Below are positions 21,639 to 35,502 of a DNA stretch of 35,502 bases, in pieces. Every line of letters starts with the position of its first letter. The first letter of the stretch is position 1. The DNA comes from Alphaproteobacteria bacterium (lineage in GTDB: Bacteria > Pseudomonadota > Alphaproteobacteria > UBA2136 > JAPKEQ01): positions 1 through 35,502 of the forward strand of contig JAPKEQ010000007.1 in assembly GCA_028821995.1 (NCBI GenBank). Reading direction: 5' to 3'. The notes under the pieces were generated by a model that did not search any database, was not told the DNA's origin, and saw nothing but the letters and a program-made list of their open reading frames with translations. A program made the translations under genes and the position numbers.

Positions 21639-21682
21639 TTTGTGTTAATATTTAAGCTATATTTTAAAGAAAGATGACTCTT

Positions 21683-22645
21683 ATGAAGCTTGCAAGCCTT
21701 AAACATGGCAGGGATGGAAAACTCATTATTGCCAATAAAGAGCTGACACAATACATTGAGGCTTCTCCTGTTTGTGAAACCATGCAGCAAGCTTTAGATG
21801 ATTGGGAAACGCTCTCACCAAAGCTAGAAAAACTTAGCCATAAACTCAACGCGGGCGAAATACCAGGAAAGCCTCTTAATGCTGAACTTTGCGATGCTCC
21901 TCTTCCGCGCTCTTACGGCTGGCTTGATGGCAGTGCTTACGTCAAGCATGTAGAGCTTGTGCGTAAGGCGCGCGGCGCTGAGCTACCTGAAAGCTTCTGG
22001 ACAGACCCGCTCATGTATCAAGGACATAGCTCATTTAACCCTGCTCATACACCAATTTCAGCGCGTCCAGAAGCAGACGGACTGGATTTTGAAGCTGAGG
22101 TCGCTGTTATTCTTGATGATGTTCCTGAGGGGACCTCAAAAGAAGATGCGCTTCACCATGTCAAGCTCATTACTCTTATTAACGATATGACCTTAAGAGG
22201 TCTTACAAAGCCAGAGCTCTCCAAAGGATTTGGCTTTATAAATAGCAAACCCCCTTGCAGCATGAGCCTTGTTGCCATAACACCTGATGAGCTCGGAGAG
22301 CACTGGAGGGACGGCACTATTACCCTCCCTCTCACAACAACGCTCAACGGCAACACTTTTGGAAATCCCATGGTTAGCGAAGATATGACATTTACTTTTG
22401 CAGACCTTATTGCTCATGCTTCTCAAACACGTCCCCTTGAAGCTGGGACAGTTATTGGAAGCGGAACCATTGCAAATGTTGGCAAAAATGTTGGTAGCAG
22501 CTGTATTGCTGAGAAACGCATGCTTGAAGTTATTGAAAATGGATTTGCTCAAACACCTTGGCTTCAAAAAAATGATCTTGTACAAATTAACATGCTATTA
22601 AATGGCCAATCTATTTTAGGAAAAATTTCCCAAAAAATTGTTTAA
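21683..22645 (+). CDS. Fumarylacetoacetate hydrolase family protein
   Basis: About 320 aa. The N-terminus MKLASLKHGRDGKLIIANKEL is typical of a proteobacterial FAH-family group found in tyrosine-degradation clusters. The catalytic metal site is visible as DGLDFEAEVAVILDDV (Glu-x-Glu) and TLINDMTLRGL (Asp), and the C-terminal GTVIGSGTIANVG is the family's closing motif. Next to hppD the likely reaction is cleavage of fumarylacetoacetate to fumarate and acetoacetate, but the family also has other 3-oxo-acid hydrolases. ATG 21674 is possible; 21683 is preferred because AAAGAAAG is then at correct distance. Homogentisate dioxygenase and maleylacetoacetate isomerase are not in the window. Confidence 0.85.
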   Translation: MKLASLKHGRDGKLIIANKELTQYIEASPVCETMQQALDDWETLSPKLEKLSHKLNAGEIPGKPLNAELCDAPLPRSYGWLDGSAYVKHVELVRKARGAELPESFWTDPLMYQGHSSFNPAHTPISARPEADGLDFEAEVAVILDDVPEGTSKEDALHHVKLITLINDMTLRGLTKPELSKGFGFINSKPPCSMSLVAITPDELGEHWRDGTITLPLTTTLNGNTFGNPMVSEDMTFTFADLIAHASQTRPLEAGTVIGSGTIANVGKNVGSSCIAEKRMLEVIENGFAQTPWLQKNDLVQINMLLNGQSILGKISQKIV

Positions 22646-22802
22646 TTCCATCATGCTACACCACATTGTATACAAACAGGTACATAAACCTTTGATTATG
22701 CATACAAAAATTGTATTTTTTATTTGCGTCCCCTCATTTCATCAGGCAGTATATGCCTCATAAACAAATCTGATTATTTCCTTTTTTCACGGAGGTGGGT
22801 AT
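22646..22802 (+). promoter_or_regulatory. Upstream region of the AAA+ gene with TTGTAT/ATACAA inverted repeats
   Basis: The 157-nt gap holds a perfect palindrome TTGTATACAA (22666-22675) and, 26 nt on, ATACAA-aaa-TTGTAT (22702-22716) followed by a T-rich run. The second element could be a weak AT-rich terminator of the FAH gene; both together could be operator sites of one repressor. A very strong Shine-Dalgarno, GGAGGTG, precedes the ATG at 22803. No clear -35/-10 pair was found. Confidence 0.45.
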
Positions 22803-24050
22803 ATGTCCACGCAGCCGAGCCCCCCTAAACGGGGTATGCGCTATTCACCGATTCTCGCAAGTCATGCACAATTTGCTGACATGCTGCGAGCTTATGGTGG
22901 ATACGAAAACATTGATCCTGTACTGATGGCTACTGGCCACATTACGATGATGCAAATTGAAGAGAACGAGAAAAACCCGTTTAAGGGCAATATTCAGGGC
23001 ATGATCCTGGATGGCGACCCTGGTACAGGCAAATCGTTCTTCGCAAAAGCCATTGCCAACGCTTTTGATGGCCGGTTTCTGGTGCACCTTGGTAACCCAG
23101 ACGCTGACCACACCGAACTTGTGCGGGGTATTAACCCTGTAGAAGTTGCAAAAGCCATGGCTGGTCAAACTTTAACCACAACAGATGAATCCGGCAATGC
23201 AGTTCAGGTGACGATTCGAGAGGAGCATATTTATACTCTCGGTAAACTTCTGGAAGCTTTTTTGAGCTCCCATGAAAAATTCACTGTTCTGCTGTTTGAC
23301 GAGGCGGAAAAAAACCGCTTTTCTGTACAAACTGCCCTTCTGACAATTCTGCAAGATGGCGAAATTCCGCTGTCTGGTAAAATTATGGATGAAGATGGTG
23401 AAGCCGTAACCTCAAATGGCCCGTTCAGCCAAATTGTACACGCTCGTCGTGACAATCTGTTGATTCTGGCTGCCAAAAACAAAGAGCGTGACCTTTATGA
23501 TGCGACAATGCGTCGTTTTCGTGTGGTCTATGCGGGCTATCCTAGCCCCCAAAAAGAACTTGAAATTTTGTCAAAACAGCACGGCGCCCCGCAAGAGGTG
23601 ACTGCTGCCGATGAAGCCAGGTTCAAAGCTCTACTTAAAACACCTGAAGCCTTTATGGGCAATGTGCAGGTTCGACATCTGGAAACACGCGTGAAGCAAG
23701 AGCTGAAACGTATCGTGAGAGCCGCCAGCGGCCTTCGTGGTGATCCAGGTATCACAAAAAAGCCTTCATATCCCGAAGTGAGCCGCATGGTTCAAGACTT
23801 CATGTTGGTTGCCAAATATTTGGTGCATGTTGAGCAATCTCGCTCAAGCCCAGATAAAAAGATCTATCGCAGTGAGTTGTTTAGGAAAGTTCTGACACAA
23901 CTCTATGTGAACGGTCTGGTTCAACGCCAAGAAGAACAATCTCGCGCAGCTAAGACGCTGGGTGATGTTCGTGGCGCAGGACCTGGCTTCCTTAAAGCTA
24001 TTCTTCGTGCCATAGAAGGAGAAGATTATACCCTGACTTACGGAGAGTAA
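22803..24050 (+). CDS. MoxR/CobS-like AAA+ ATPase
   Basis: A 415-aa AAA+ protein. Walker A is GDPGTGKS (71-78), Walker B is VLLFDEAEK (about 162-170), and a sensor-like ILAAKNKERD with the downstream arginine-rich DATMRRFRV follow the MoxR/CobS pattern. The last 150 residues are helical and charged. MoxR ATPases usually act with a von Willebrand A (VWA) protein to remodel or insert a metal into a target complex; a VWA gene lies 421 nt downstream, which fits. The start has an excellent GGAGGTG. CTG leucine codons dominate, whereas neighbours favour CTT/CTC, so horizontal origin (possibly phage, where CobS-like genes are known) is possible. The target is unknown. Confidence 0.85.
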   Translation: MSTQPSPPKRGMRYSPILASHAQFADMLRAYGGYENIDPVLMATGHITMMQIEENEKNPFKGNIQGMILDGDPGTGKSFFAKAIANAFDGRFLVHLGNPDADHTELVRGINPVEVAKAMAGQTLTTTDESGNAVQVTIREEHIYTLGKLLEAFLSSHEKFTVLLFDEAEKNRFSVQTALLTILQDGEIPLSGKIMDEDGEAVTSNGPFSQIVHARRDNLLILAAKNKERDLYDATMRRFRVVYAGYPSPQKELEILSKQHGAPQEVTAADEARFKALLKTPEAFMGNVQVRHLETRVKQELKRIVRAASGLRGDPGITKKPSYPEVSRMVQDFMLVAKYLVHVEQSRSSPDKKIYRSELFRKVLTQLYVNGLVQRQEEQSRAAKTLGDVRGAGPGFLKAILRAIEGEDYTLTYGE

Positions 24051-24384
24051 GACTGGGTATCACGAGATTTGGGCGGGAGTTCCTCGTAGCTTGCTACGGC
24101 ATGCCTCCCCCCAAGCATCCGGTGCCGTCCTGTATCGTATGAATAATAATAATTGTGGCTAAGAGCCACACCTGGACCCTGCAGTCGTACCGCCCTCAAC
24201 GAGCGGTGCCTGTGGAGTGCGGTGAAAGCCGCCGTATTAAGGCCCTGTCGCAATATTATCTGGCCCTCTAGGACGAAAGTCTTACGGTTAAGAGTGTTGC
24301 ACCCTACTGTTGGCCTGCAAAGAGACGTTGGACAGTAGGTTTCGATTTAAAGAAGGGTGGTCGCGTGCGACCATCCTTTTTTTT
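24051..24384 (+). ncRNA. Candidate structured RNA / attenuated leader between AAA+ and VWA genes
   Basis: About 330 nt without a credible ORF, GC-richer than the genes around it and full of inverted repeats. A stem 24069-24079 with 24105-24114 (TTGGG/CCCAA plus GGGAG/CTCCC) encloses the hairpin CGTAG-cttg-CTACG. Others are GTGGCT-aag-AGCCAC (24155-24169), ACCGC…GCGGT (24189-24206), GCGG…CCGC (about 24219-24232), AGGAC-GAAA-GTCTT with a GNRA-type loop (24270-24283), and CCTACTGT…ACAGTAGG (24303-24339). It ends in a strong terminator. It could be an independent ncRNA or a leader controlling the VWA gene 88 nt further on. I could not match it to tmRNA, RNase P, SRP, 6S or a cobalamin riboswitch. 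Confidence 0.55.
24353..24384 (+). terminator. Strong rho-independent terminator closing the structured RNA
   Basis: AAGGGTGGTCGC-gt-GCGACCATCCTT forms a stem of up to 12 pairs followed by eight Ts. It lies in the gap, not at the end of a coding gene: 303 nt after the AAA+ stop and 88 nt before the VWA start. That placement fits the 3' end of a small RNA or an attenuator. Confidence 0.9.
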
Positions 24385-24471
24385 ATGCAAATGTCTCAAG
24401 CAAACATTAATATCTCGTGTGCCAATCTTGGCATCTTTCTATGTGTTCTCTTATTCACAAAGGAGTATGCC

Positions 24472-26400
24472 ATGTCTGGCAATAATAATGATCTACCCCC
24501 TGAGGTAGAACAGCGTATTAAAGAGCTTCGCGCTCTTATCAAACACTACATCAATCCCAACGCTAAATCTAAAGCCACCTTTGATAAGGAATATGGCCAG
24601 CTCACGCCTGAGCATATGATGGAGATGATGGCAGAGCTCATGGGGCTTGAAGGGCAACTTCCCGAAGATTGGGAAGGGCTTTTGGAATCTCATGAAGAAA
24701 ACTTGAAAAACATTATGGATCAGGCTGATAGCTTAGAGCTGCAAGCTGCCCTAAACAGGTATGCCCAGCGCATGAGCACAGCAGAGACCATTCGCCAAAG
24801 TCACCCTGAGGCTGCTGAGCTGATTGAAAAAATCAAACAGGAGCGTCAATCCTTTATCTCCAAAATGATCTCCGCCTCAGAAGAGAGCGAAGATGATTCG
24901 GAAGGAGAAGATGAAGAGTCTGAAGATTCGCAAGAAGGCGAAGACTCTGATAGTGATGATGACGGCGATGACAGTGATGAAGATGGCGACGGTGATCCTG
25001 ATGAAAGTGATCAGGATGGAGAAGATGGAAGCGAGAGTGACGATTCTGATAATTCTCAGGATAGTGACGCGCAAAATGACTCTGACTCTCAGAGCAAAGA
25101 CCCATCAGATTCACAAGATCAGAGCAAAGAACCTTCAGACCAACAATCTGATAATACATCGCAAGACAACCAAACTCAGGAAGATCAATCTCAAGATGAT
25201 ACCTCTGATGGAGACCCAGAAGATGGGGAGCTTGATGACGGTGAAGTTGAAGAGACGGATCCTGAATCTTACGCCGATGATATGGCCGATAACGCTGACA
25301 GCCAACCCCAAGAAGAGGGAGAGGAAGAAAGCGATGATGGCGATGGCGACGGCGATGGTGACGATGAAGGCGAAGGTGATGATGAAGGCGGTGACGGCGA
25401 AGGTGAAGGCGAAGGTGACGACGGCAACAGCCCTGGTGAGCCTGGTGAGAGTGATGGAGACGACGATGACGGCTTCTCATATGGTTTTGAACAGCCAGAA
25501 ACACCACCTCCCGGTACGTTCCAAATCTCCAATGAAGAACCTGACCCTATTGCTGTTAGCAAGCTCATGCAATCTTTGCAGGCATTAATTGCCCGTGACC
25601 CTGAAGAGCCGACACAGGCGCCTCGCTGGAACATGGACAAACTGGTCAGGCTTATGCTGGAACCAGGTGCTGATTTGACTCGCGCTAAAGAGCCGACACA
25701 AATCCCGCAAGATGTTGTGTTCATCTTTGATAACTCAGGTAGTATGAATGAGTTTGAGCAAGCTGCACGCCGCCTTGCGCAAGCTGTTGGTAAAGCTGCT
25801 GATTTAGGCTCATCCCACGTCGTGTCTATCGTGACGTCCAACGGCGAATTTAGCCAACATGTTAGCACTGTTGACGCTATGGGGGAAAAAGATCCGTTCC
25901 ATCCTTCAAGCCGCACCAACGATAGCGGCGGATGGTTTATTAACGGTGAATTTAAAGGGCTTTTGCCTTTTGACCCTGGTACATATAACCGTGATGATCA
26001 TTGTGCGCGCTGGGAATGGTTCCTTAAAAAGGAGCTACCTCGCAAATACAATATTACGCCTAAAGTGGTGCTCTACTTCAGCGATGAACACGGTTCCATT
26101 CAGTGGTGCTATATGTCTCAACGCTTAAAGGAGATGGAGCATATTTGGCTTGATCCTAAGATTCGTCAGTTACCTGATGGTAGTACCATGTCTGGTGCAA
26201 CCAAATGGCCGCGGGGTCTTTTTCCTGAAAATATGCAGGGCATGACCAATGACGCTATGTACGATAAGAGTAGTGGCTATGAAGAGCTCTTTTGCAAATT
26301 TAAAGGCATCTACTTTTCGAACGTAGGCGGCGATACGAGTAATGAATATTCCACTGAGGATGACGTTTGTAACGCCTTGAAGCAAGTTGCAGGACTCTAA
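24472..26400 (+). CDS. CobT-like von Willebrand A domain protein with long acidic linker
   Basis: A 642-aa protein from ATG 24472 (AAAGGAG upstream); the track ORF starts 54 codons too early, inside the terminator. Residues 1-135 are helical and charged (LPPEVEQRIKELRALIKHY). Residues about 136-333 are almost only Asp, Glu, Ser, Gly and Gln. The C-terminal 300 residues form a VWA domain with the metal-ion-dependent adhesion (MIDAS) motif DNSGSM at about 420. A helical N-terminus, acidic linker and C-terminal VWA is the layout of cobaltochelatase CobT and phage CobT-like proteins. The VWA part has an unusual Trp-rich tail (GWFINGEFKG; CARWEWFLKKEL). It very probably works with the AAA+ protein upstream. 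No cobalamin genes are near, so a cobalt-chelatase role is not supported. Confidence 0.85.
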   Translation: MSGNNNDLPPEVEQRIKELRALIKHYINPNAKSKATFDKEYGQLTPEHMMEMMAELMGLEGQLPEDWEGLLESHEENLKNIMDQADSLELQAALNRYAQRMSTAETIRQSHPEAAELIEKIKQERQSFISKMISASEESEDDSEGEDEESEDSQEGEDSDSDDDGDDSDEDGDGDPDESDQDGEDGSESDDSDNSQDSDAQNDSDSQSKDPSDSQDQSKEPSDQQSDNTSQDNQTQEDQSQDDTSDGDPEDGELDDGEVEETDPESYADDMADNADSQPQEEGEEESDDGDGDGDGDDEGEGDDEGGDGEGEGEGDDGNSPGEPGESDGDDDDGFSYGFEQPETPPPGTFQISNEEPDPIAVSKLMQSLQALIARDPEEPTQAPRWNMDKLVRLMLEPGADLTRAKEPTQIPQDVVFIFDNSGSMNEFEQAARRLAQAVGKAADLGSSHVVSIVTSNGEFSQHVSTVDAMGEKDPFHPSSRTNDSGGWFINGEFKGLLPFDPGTYNRDDHCARWEWFLKKELPRKYNITPKVVLYFSDEHGSIQWCYMSQRLKEMEHIWLDPKIRQLPDGSTMSGATKWPRGLFPENMQGMTNDAMYDKSSGYEELFCKFKGIYFSNVGGDTSNEYSTEDDVCNALKQVAGL

Positions 26401-28183: not shown

Positions 28184-30190
28184 TTAAAGCTGACTATCCT
28201 CATCAAGCGCACCACCAAGTTCAGAGCTCTTCAAATCACTGCCATCAAGCAAATGTTGCTCAGCACTGTTTTGTTTACTCACTTGCTCTTGCTGTCGGCC
28301 TTCTTGCTCCATAAGTTTCAACTCTTCAATTAAATCATCAATAGAAATCATACTCCAAAACGCAGCGTAATATAAACCTGGCTGCTCCCTATAAAGCCTA
28401 TGTCTCAATCTCATAAGTTCTAAACCTTGAGAACGCATGCCCATAAGTGCAGTATAAAAGCCTGGAGAAATTCTATCTAACTCGTCAGGTCTATCATTAG
28501 GCCAAAGTTGATGCGCAGAACTTTCAAGTATGTCATCGCTCACATGTTCAAGATGAAGCGTAAACCACTCAGTAACTTTATCCAGATTGACCTCATCTCC
28601 CAAGTAGCGAGTTAAAAATGGATAATCTTCAAGCGGTCGCCCTGTTGCAATTTTTAAATTTTCAACATCAGAAACCCACCACACTTGACCTTCAACCTCT
28701 TTTGCATAGTAACTAGGAACCACATTGGAACGTATAACAGGCAGCAGCCTTTGCGCCAAATTTGTTGGTGGGGTTATATTCTCTAGTCTATTTTTGGGGG
28801 CAAGCTCTGGAAACCACCAATTATCGAGTTCATACTCAAACTCTACAGGAAGTGGGTGATACCCTAAAGTACAAGATTCTTCATTAAGTGGCTTTCTACG
28901 AATAGCTGAATTAATGGCGATATCATTTGCCTGCCGTGCTTGATAGACATTTTCATCAATCAGGTCATAGCCGTTCATAATGCTAATTGGGTAAAATTTT
29001 GTCTTCATGTGTTCAGGTACAGAAATGGTCTCTGAATTATTTTCAGCAGGTGACTTAAAGGCACGCACCACCTCATCCACGCTCTTGTAGTAATAATGAA
29101 GAGGATCCCATAAAGGACCTGAAAGTTGCATAAACTTGCCTGTAACATGATCCCATCCAGAAAGAGCCGGCTCTTCAAAGTGGCTTGGGTGCGTAGGTAG
29201 ATGGCAAGATCCCCACTCAGCTACGCAACGGGTATGAGGCAAACGTAAATCTGGAAAGTAAGGCTCTGGGTCATTTACATGAGACGACTTATAACCGCTT
29301 CCATCACTCACGATGACTTGAGCAGGCTCAATACGACGAGACATAGCAATGCCAGGCCTCTTCACTTCCAAAATGGTTCCTTTAGGCGCATCACTTGGAG
29401 CAGTGCTAATAATTTTATGAAGACCCTCTACTGCTCTGCCAGGCCAAAAATCTTCAAGCTCAAAATCAGCGGTTACTTTGTTATAGCCATTATGCGCTTC
29501 AAAGGTTGGAATAACAGTTACACCTTTTTCAAAAAGGGCCTCATACCAAGATTCACCATCATGTTTTTCATGCCATTGCTCGTAACTTAAATTACCGCGC
29601 GCATCCCATTTGCTAAAGAAATCAGCTGCTGAGCTTTCCACTTCTGTAAGAGTTAGCCCTTCTGACTTCACATAAAGATACTCTGTCTGAGGCAGTTTCC
29701 ACCCATCAATATAAAAAGTATCCAAACGTAGCTTATATGGGTATAAATTCGGGTTCTTATAGCGTAAAAACTTAGGAATATGTTCATTTCCAGATTCCTT
29801 TGCATCAGGAGCAATAGACATATCTAAGCTCCTAAAAGAGGTAAGAATACATTCTGTCTGATCTGGCGCCGCTGGCTGGCTAAAGCGTGGGAACATCTTA
29901 TCAATGCTTTTCCACTCTTCATCAAACTTAACCTCAGGTCCATGCCCAATATGAATGACTCTCCCGCTCAAATCCCTCACACAGGTTGGAGATAAGCTCA
30001 CAAGATGAGAAAGCTTTACGCCTTGGCCATATTCACAAGAAATATTTGCGTTATTACCATGAGAAGGCTGACGCTTATTAACAAGGTTTAAATCTCTCAG
30101 TAAGCCAGAGTAGAAAGGCCAAGATACCTTCATGTGAGGGTTCTGGCCTCTCAAGTTATTCCATACAAATGCTTTATTATTTTTATTCAT
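28184..30190 (-). CDS. Uncharacterised 668-aa protein linked to the TraG-like gene
   Basis: I do not recognise this family. The product has no signal peptide and no membrane helix, so it is probably cytoplasmic. It is rich in Trp, Tyr, His and Pro (WPFYSGLLRDL; FDEEWKSIDKMFPRFSQP; GPLWDPLHYYYKSVDEV; ELDNWWFPELAPKNRLENITPP). The last 100 residues are helical (SPGFYTALMGMRSQGLELMRLRHRLYREQPGLYYAAFWSMISIDDLIEELKLMEQEGRQQEQ) and end in an acidic, flexible tail (DGSDLKSSELGGALDEDSQL), similar in style to a secretion or docking tail. No nucleotide-binding or catalytic motif is visible. It starts 14 nt after the TraG-like stop (TAGGA upstream), so the two are almost surely co-transcribed. A coupling, chaperone or effector role is inference only. 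Confidence 0.8.
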   Translation of the reverse strand: MNKNNKAFVWNNLRGQNPHMKVSWPFYSGLLRDLNLVNKRQPSHGNNANISCEYGQGVKLSHLVSLSPTCVRDLSGRVIHIGHGPEVKFDEEWKSIDKMFPRFSQPAAPDQTECILTSFRSLDMSIAPDAKESGNEHIPKFLRYKNPNLYPYKLRLDTFYIDGWKLPQTEYLYVKSEGLTLTEVESSAADFFSKWDARGNLSYEQWHEKHDGESWYEALFEKGVTVIPTFEAHNGYNKVTADFELEDFWPGRAVEGLHKIISTAPSDAPKGTILEVKRPGIAMSRRIEPAQVIVSDGSGYKSSHVNDPEPYFPDLRLPHTRCVAEWGSCHLPTHPSHFEEPALSGWDHVTGKFMQLSGPLWDPLHYYYKSVDEVVRAFKSPAENNSETISVPEHMKTKFYPISIMNGYDLIDENVYQARQANDIAINSAIRRKPLNEESCTLGYHPLPVEFEYELDNWWFPELAPKNRLENITPPTNLAQRLLPVIRSNVVPSYYAKEVEGQVWWVSDVENLKIATGRPLEDYPFLTRYLGDEVNLDKVTEWFTLHLEHVSDDILESSAHQLWPNDRPDELDRISPGFYTALMGMRSQGLELMRLRHRLYREQPGLYYAAFWSMISIDDLIEELKLMEQEGRQQEQVSKQNSAEQHLLDGSDLKSSELGGALDEDSQL

Positions 30191-34944: not shown

Positions 34945-35086
34945 TAGAATATTAAAACTTGGCAATGTGCTACTCTCCCGTGCCTTAAGACAAAGTACCA
35001 TCGCCGCTACAAGGCTTCACGTCCGTGTTCGGAATGAGAACGGGTTTTGAACTTGTGCTATGGTCACCAAGAAATTTAATATTCTA
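34945..35086 (-). other. Processing stem enclosing the 5S rRNA
   Basis: TAGAATATTAAA (34945-34956) and TTTAATATTCTA (35075-35086) are perfect complements that extend the terminal helix of 5S rRNA (CTTGG/CCAAG). The roughly 12-bp AT stem probably serves RNase cutting of the precursor. Confidence 0.75.
34957..35072 (-). rRNA. rrf: 5S ribosomal RNA
   Basis: The minus strand reads CTTGGTGACCATAGCA…CATTCCGAACACGGACGTGAAGCC…GGGAGAGTAGCACATTGCCAAG, about 116 nt with the standard terminal helix and the conserved loop CCGAAC. It follows 23S by about 110 nt, as in a normal 16S-23S-5S operon read on the minus strand. Ends are accurate to a few bases. The track ORF 34862-35050 that crosses it is not a gene. 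Confidence 0.95.
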
Positions 35087-35185
35087 ACAAGGTGCTCGAC
35101 CAATAATAGTTATATAATGACCTTAATCATAAACCGTCAATTATCTGAAATCTACATACAGTAATTCGGTTATGTTGAGTGTAAG

Positions 35186-35502
<317 letters not shown>

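Follow-up and report, generated by a model that had tools for sequence, protein, structure and literature searches.

The window, by which we mean the whole stretch of DNA that was analysed (35,502 nucleotides, contig JAPKEQ010000007.1 of an alphaproteobacterial assembly, GCA_028821995.1), contains a gene for a MoxR/CobS-like AAA+ ATPase followed on the same strand by a gene for a VWA/MIDAS protein, with a structured RNA between them. The features, in window coordinates, are listed below (CM, covariance model).

22803-24050 (+): gene for the MoxR/CobS-like AAA+ ATPase, 415 aa, Pfam AAA_5; the RNA starts directly after its stop codon.
24051-24384 (+): structured RNA, complete element from ATPase stop codon to terminator end; homologues at L018:6706-7135 and L021:6072-6612.
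24068-24115 (+): P1 stem (24068-24079 / 24105-24115) with a conserved asymmetric internal loop; fold, and blind CM match at 24070-24163.
24084-24099 (+): P1a (24084-24089 / 24094-24099), inside P1; fold and helix comparison.
24116-24141 (+): P2 hairpin, loop CGUCCU (the same in RI_95, GAUCCC in UBA6503); fold and helix comparison.
24142-24153 (+): A/U-rich linker, of UAUUU type in the homologues; homologue alignment.
24154-24170 (+): additional hairpin UGUGGCU-AAG-AGCCACA, in the window copy only; fold and CM scan.
24179-24215 (+): P3 two-part hairpin with the 9-nt loop CCUCAACGA at 24194-24202; blind CM match at 24172-24230.
24216-24238 (+): P4 hairpin; fold and CM scan.
24250-24300 (+): P5 arm with a GAAA tetraloop tip; fold; the tip is found in all three copies, the arm length varies.
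24303-24339 (+): P6 hairpin, whose apical loop in the window contains the probable pseudoknot strand; fold.
24326-24343 (+): conserved 3' motif CGUUGGACAGUAGGUUUC; in the homologues CGUAGGGG...GGUUUC.
24349-24385 (+): intrinsic terminator hairpin and U run; sequence and fold.
24472-26400 (+): gene for the VWA/MIDAS protein, 642 aa, with a helical N-terminal domain, a D/E-rich stretch and a C-terminal VWA domain with the MIDAS motif DNSGS.

Elsewhere in the window, 28184-30190 (-) encodes a 668-aa protein with zero Pfam matches, and 34957-35502 (-), at the contig edge, holds 5S rRNA and the 3' end of 23S rRNA.

That a real structured RNA lies at 24051-24384 is practically certain. On the forward strand 24051-24390 folds at -133.1 kcal/mol, against a mean of -107.2 kcal/mol for dinucleotide shuffles (z -5.28; 0 of 100 shuffles was equally stable); the opposite strand gave z -2.1 in the same test. 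Partition-function folding yielded at least eight helices with p ≥ 0.85, of which one is GNRA-capped (UAGGAC-GAAA-GUCUUA, 24269-24284), and in addition an intrinsic terminator at 24349-24382 made up of a 15-bp hairpin and a U run. The G+C content of the RNA is 0.53, compared with 0.48 in both the ATPase and the VWA genes and 0.434 in the window, and is reached by 1.2% of equal-sized segments. The first-pass annotation had described an unassigned structured RNA with at least six inverted repeats, one of them GNRA-capped, a long terminator at its end and more GC than the neighbouring genes, and all of these points are borne out. It had placed the RNA correctly and ended it too far downstream, at 24471: the RNA proper (about 330 nt) stops at 24384, and the remaining 87 nt between its terminator and the VWA start codon (24385-24471, G+C 0.38) are an ordinary VWA-gene leader.

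The two flanking proteins form a MoxR/VWA pair, since the P-loop of the ATPase is intact (GDPGTGKS) and the VWA protein has the DNSGS MIDAS motif. In the pairs CobS/CobT, NorQ/NorD, CoxD/CoxE and RavA/ViaA an AAA_5 ATPase likewise stands beside a VWA/MIDAS protein, and the window ATPase most resembles proteins of the CobS type. Its similarity to CobS-type and MadB ATPases lies far under the equivalog cut-offs, and both assignments were rejected: the MadB ATPase model (NCBIfam NF047784, cut-off 475) scores 27.3 with the window protein and 81.3 with its RI_95 homologue, and for a CobS/CobT cobaltochelatase neither a CobS nor a CobT model was among the matches listed, which included just a weak one to phage porphyrin biosynthesis. 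The VWA protein scores 20.2 with Pfam VWA_CoxE, under the cut-off of 26.4. Ahead of its VWA domain is a stretch with 45% D+E, which we take to be CobT-like; the helical N-terminal domain was modelled at a mean pLDDT of 73, and a fold search with it gave no match.

Homologues of the ATPase and VWA proteins were found, via neighbouring proteins, in three metagenome-assembled alphaproteobacterial genomes, RI_95 (G196), UBA6503 (G290) and OFTM141 (G075); the window ATPase is 35% identical to that of RI_95 and 31% to that of OFTM141. In RI_95 the two genes are separated by 490 nt (L018:6706-7194), and this gap contains a structured RNA of about 430 nt (L018:6706-7135, fold z -3.2) with a terminator at its end. 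In UBA6503 the ATPase gene is followed directly by an RNA of about 540 nt (L021:6072-6612, fold z -4.4), also with a terminator, and about 260 kb of the same contig separate this locus from the VWA gene. (That VWA gene, on contig 2 at about 271 kb, lies apart from its ATPase and directly behind a ClpP-like protease gene.) The RI_95 and UBA6503 RNAs align colinearly, with about 60% identity over the 5' domain, and by this alignment are clearly homologous to each other. The third genome differs. In OFTM141 the ATPase and VWA genes are adjacent on contig 6, the gap between them holds a simple terminator and no structured RNA, and a genome-wide scan with the RNA model gave zero matches in this 99% complete genome. 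Its VWA protein, of 322 aa, starts at a point that in the homologues is close to where the acidic region ends, and so lacks the N-terminal domain and the greater part of that region. Judged by eye from the sequence, a D-Ala-D-Ala dipeptidase-like gene lies upstream of the ATPase gene in both UBA6503 and OFTM141, in divergent orientation.

No known RNA family accounts for these RNAs. The Rfam comparison that the first-pass annotation had suggested (4227 families, gathering score) returned zero matches for the window, RI_95 and UBA6503 copies, and at E ≤ 10 none of the three had a meaningful match, the window copy giving chance matches to microRNA and terminator-like models; ARAGORN detected neither a tRNA nor a tmRNA in the stretch. 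Nor was coding potential found: the longest ORF lying inside the stretch has at most 71 aa, and the stretch is judged non-coding because the lengths of the homologous stretches are about 100 nt or more apart and their stems show compensatory changes.

Do the window RNA and the other two belong to one family? A CM of the 5' domain was built from RI_95 and UBA6503 alone, with the window excluded, and used in an unfiltered scan of both strands of the window. The match of rank 2 was 24172-24230 (model positions 96-159, E 0.48) and that of rank 3 was 24070-24163 (mainly the first ~95 model positions, E 0.56). Both pieces are on the correct strand, in the correct order and within the reported stretch, with the window-only hairpin at 24154-24170 between them. 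Singly they are weak (E about 0.5); their joint ordered placement in a 330-nt target is not.

A second line of evidence comes from a probable long-range pseudoknot, predicted from the sequences, between the P3 loop and the 3' motif. The loop in the homologues is GCRCUACGA (9 nt), and in the window CGUUG at 24326-24330 is complementary to the P3 loop. The pairing is CUACG/CGUAG in RI_95 and UBA6503 and CAACG/CGUUG in the window, so that the U-A to A-U exchange is a compensatory change. In the window this 3' strand is part of the P6 loop; in the other two it comes just downstream of P6. We turned the pairing into a descriptor: a 5-bp stem capped by a 9-nt loop that ends in ACGA; 40-320 nt downstream, a strand exactly complementary to loop positions 4-8; and GGUUUC within the next 26 nt. 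Its single site in the window is at 24194 and 24326, where the loop CCUCAACGA has CGUUG as its partner. It finds only the three RNAs over 1.13 Mb of retrieved loci and has 0 sites in 10.7 Mb of random sequence (150 x 71 kb with the window's dinucleotide content); minus the GGUUUC condition, 0.15 sites are expected per window. These figures should be read knowing that we drew up the descriptor with the window match already in view and relaxed its loop from CUACGA to ACGA to admit the window; the random-sequence control ran the identical relaxed descriptor.

The three RNAs share a common anatomy: a long P1 stem with its asymmetric internal loop and P1a, then P2, the A/U-rich linker, P3, P4, P5 and P6, closed by the 3' motif and the terminator. 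Among the 36 pairs compared, the window has 35 standard ones and RI_95 and UBA6503 have 36 each; both sides have changed in 12 of the 36 between RI_95 and UBA6503 and in 21 of the 36 when the window is involved, in a helix comparison that took each RNA's own fold and is therefore biased towards agreement. The covariation that the first-pass annotation had proposed to look for is thus present, as compensatory changes in the shared stems and the pseudoknot. In all three RNAs the GAAA tip of P5 could also pair with the UUUC of the 3' motif. (The aligner misplaced the 5' strand of the window's P1, and the CM accordingly stays a two-sequence model.) We assign the window RNA to the family because of the blind CM and the descriptor, neither of which used the window fold, and consider it very likely that one RNA family is present in the three genomes, those of RI_95 and UBA6503 being distant relatives. 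It appears to be a previously undescribed family, tied to the ATPase.

What does this RNA do behind the ATPase gene? The distance from the ATPase stop codon to the RNA start is within about 30 nt in all three holders, which leaves no promoter room; the RNA is therefore taken to be the 3' part of the ATPase message, and co-transcription with the ATPase is probable. The UBA6503 RNA has its place after the ATPase gene although the VWA gene is about 260 kb away, so the link of the RNA is very probably with the ATPase and not with the VWA gene. Of the two roles offered in the first-pass annotation, that of an RNA working with the ATPase/VWA pair fits this linkage: the RNA follows the ATPase in three of three holders, each of which has the VWA gene in its genome. 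On the strength of gene linkage we give a probability of about 0.5 to a role in trans, in which the RNA would be made with the ATPase message and then cooperate with the ATPase/VWA machine. The ATPase message would carry the RNA as its 3' part and end at the RNA's own terminator, and on processing the RNA would most likely be released, or retained, as a stable RNA. Alongside the MoxR/CobS-like AAA+ ring and the MIDAS/VWA protein it would then serve as a scaffold, a cofactor or a substrate, and the assembly would be a ribonucleoprotein remodelling machine. We favour such a working partner because of the size of the RNA, its pseudoknot, and its absence from the genome whose VWA protein has lost its N-terminal domain and the greater part of its acidic region. 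This last correlation favours the reading on a single loss, that in OFTM141, and the OFTM141 pair also shows that the RNA is not obligatory for an ATPase/VWA pair. Linkage alone is no proof that the RNA binds the ATPase or the VWA protein.

The RNA might instead act only in cis, as an element in the 3' UTR of the ATPase mRNA that protects the message, times its decay or senses a ligand, and never exists as a separate RNA. Its position directly after the ATPase stop codon in three of three genomes, with a terminator at its end, agrees with this, as does the plain terminator at the equivalent point in OFTM141. However, 340-540 nt with a long-range pseudoknot far exceeds what mRNA stabilisation needs, and the simple terminator of OFTM141 also suggests that the gene manages without the RNA. 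We regard a purely cis-acting element as rather unlikely.

The distribution of the RNA bears on another alternative, namely that it is an independent or selfish RNA (a ribozyme or mobile-element RNA) that lies here by chance. The RNA is very rare: three holders were found, all draft metagenome genomes, from three families. Searches by nucleotide similarity detected no second copy in its own genome and, beyond the shared terminator, no copy in 95 relatives or in phage and plasmid records. The RNA model found no further holder among 385 genomes of the class; two extra matches (E 0.003 and 0.007 per genome), one within an ABC-transporter gene and one in an ORF-dense coding stretch, were set aside as chance. 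An ATPase profile run over 399 genomes of the phylum gave no more close homologues of the pair and one more distant AAA match. Close AAA or VWA homologues were not found in viral contigs, a looser AAA profile collected 80 phage loci with distant AAA genes, none of them with the RNA, and DNA pattern scans of viral contigs gave eight chance sites, all rejected by the RNA model, and then none.

A selfish element could explain why the ATPase-RNA-VWA module is so sporadic, missing as it is from the same-genus genome and from 16 same-order genomes. A genome from another family of the order (G003, contig 6, L150) has FAH-type and AMP-ligase genes syntenic with those of window 21674-26400, but there the interval lacks the entire module and holds a maleylacetoacetate isomerase-like gene and small genes instead. 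Yet in three families the RNA occupies an identical spot, next to the 3' end of a homologous AAA gene; it has no copy elsewhere in the holders' genomes and matches no intron, ribozyme or other Rfam family, all of which makes a chance location improbable.

The other role suggested in the first-pass annotation, a leader or attenuator controlling the downstream VWA gene, is contradicted and now very improbable. In the window and RI_95 the RNA does lie between the two genes, its terminator 60-90 nt before the VWA start, as a leader might; the UBA6503 arrangement largely refutes it, a terminator of its own closes the window RNA 87 nt ahead of the VWA start codon, and a local attenuator would not need deep conservation. 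A diverged housekeeping RNA (RNase P, tmRNA, SRP or 6S) is hardly credible: size and complexity would suit RNase P or tmRNA, but none of the three homologues matches any such RNA in Rfam at E ≤ 10, ARAGORN finds no tmRNA, and the RNA, unlike true housekeeping RNAs, is missing from close relatives.

If the RNA does work in trans with the pair, as we favour, known AAA+/VWA systems offer some guidance. MoxR/VWA pairs remodel target proteins and insert metals, as in NorQD (PMC13036017). Midasin (Mdn1/Rea1) has an AAA_5-type ring, a D/E-rich stretch and a MIDAS domain and acts on an RNA-protein particle (PMC8837202). Together these two papers illustrate the kind of work done by rings of this type. 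Midasin is, however, a single giant eukaryotic protein, whereas here there are two bacterial proteins with an RNA of their own, and the likeness is an analogy only. We suggest tentatively that the locus may encode a three-part machine, in which a pseudoknotted RNA of its own joins the MoxR-like AAA+ ring and the MIDAS protein with its acidic linker. Such a machine would be a minimal counterpart, in bacteria, of the ribonucleoprotein remodelling done by midasin-type proteins. A ternary organization has a precedent in the vWA-MoxR-VMAP conflict systems, in which MoxR and VWA partners are joined by a third component (PMC7159879, PMC10910872); there it is a protein, whereas in the window it is an RNA. 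No third protein or effector was recognised beside the window pair, and PADLOC found no family beyond P-loop similarity, so a defence-system reading was rejected. Large, rare and ornate bacterial RNAs of uncertain function, namely OLE, GOLLD and ROOL, are described in PMC12286853; the window RNA differs from them in size and in gene neighbours and matches none of them in Rfam.

MoxR/VWA pairs on Sinorhizobium, Arthrobacter and Gloeobacter plasmids have intergenic gaps of at most about 80 nt, without such an RNA gap, and a literature search found no paper linking an RNA with a MoxR/VWA pair. We know of no MoxR/VWA pair that carries a structured RNA. These pairs are widespread chaperones and are regarded as purely protein machines. 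Even if the RNA is a cis-acting 3' UTR element, it represents a family absent from Rfam, with covariation sufficient to define it, and a specific descriptor is available for locating more copies. If the three-part machine is real, it would be, to our knowledge, the first case of a MoxR/VWA system that includes an RNA; some MoxR/VWA machines would then be ribonucleoproteins, and this one would be a small system for studying the role of the RNA.
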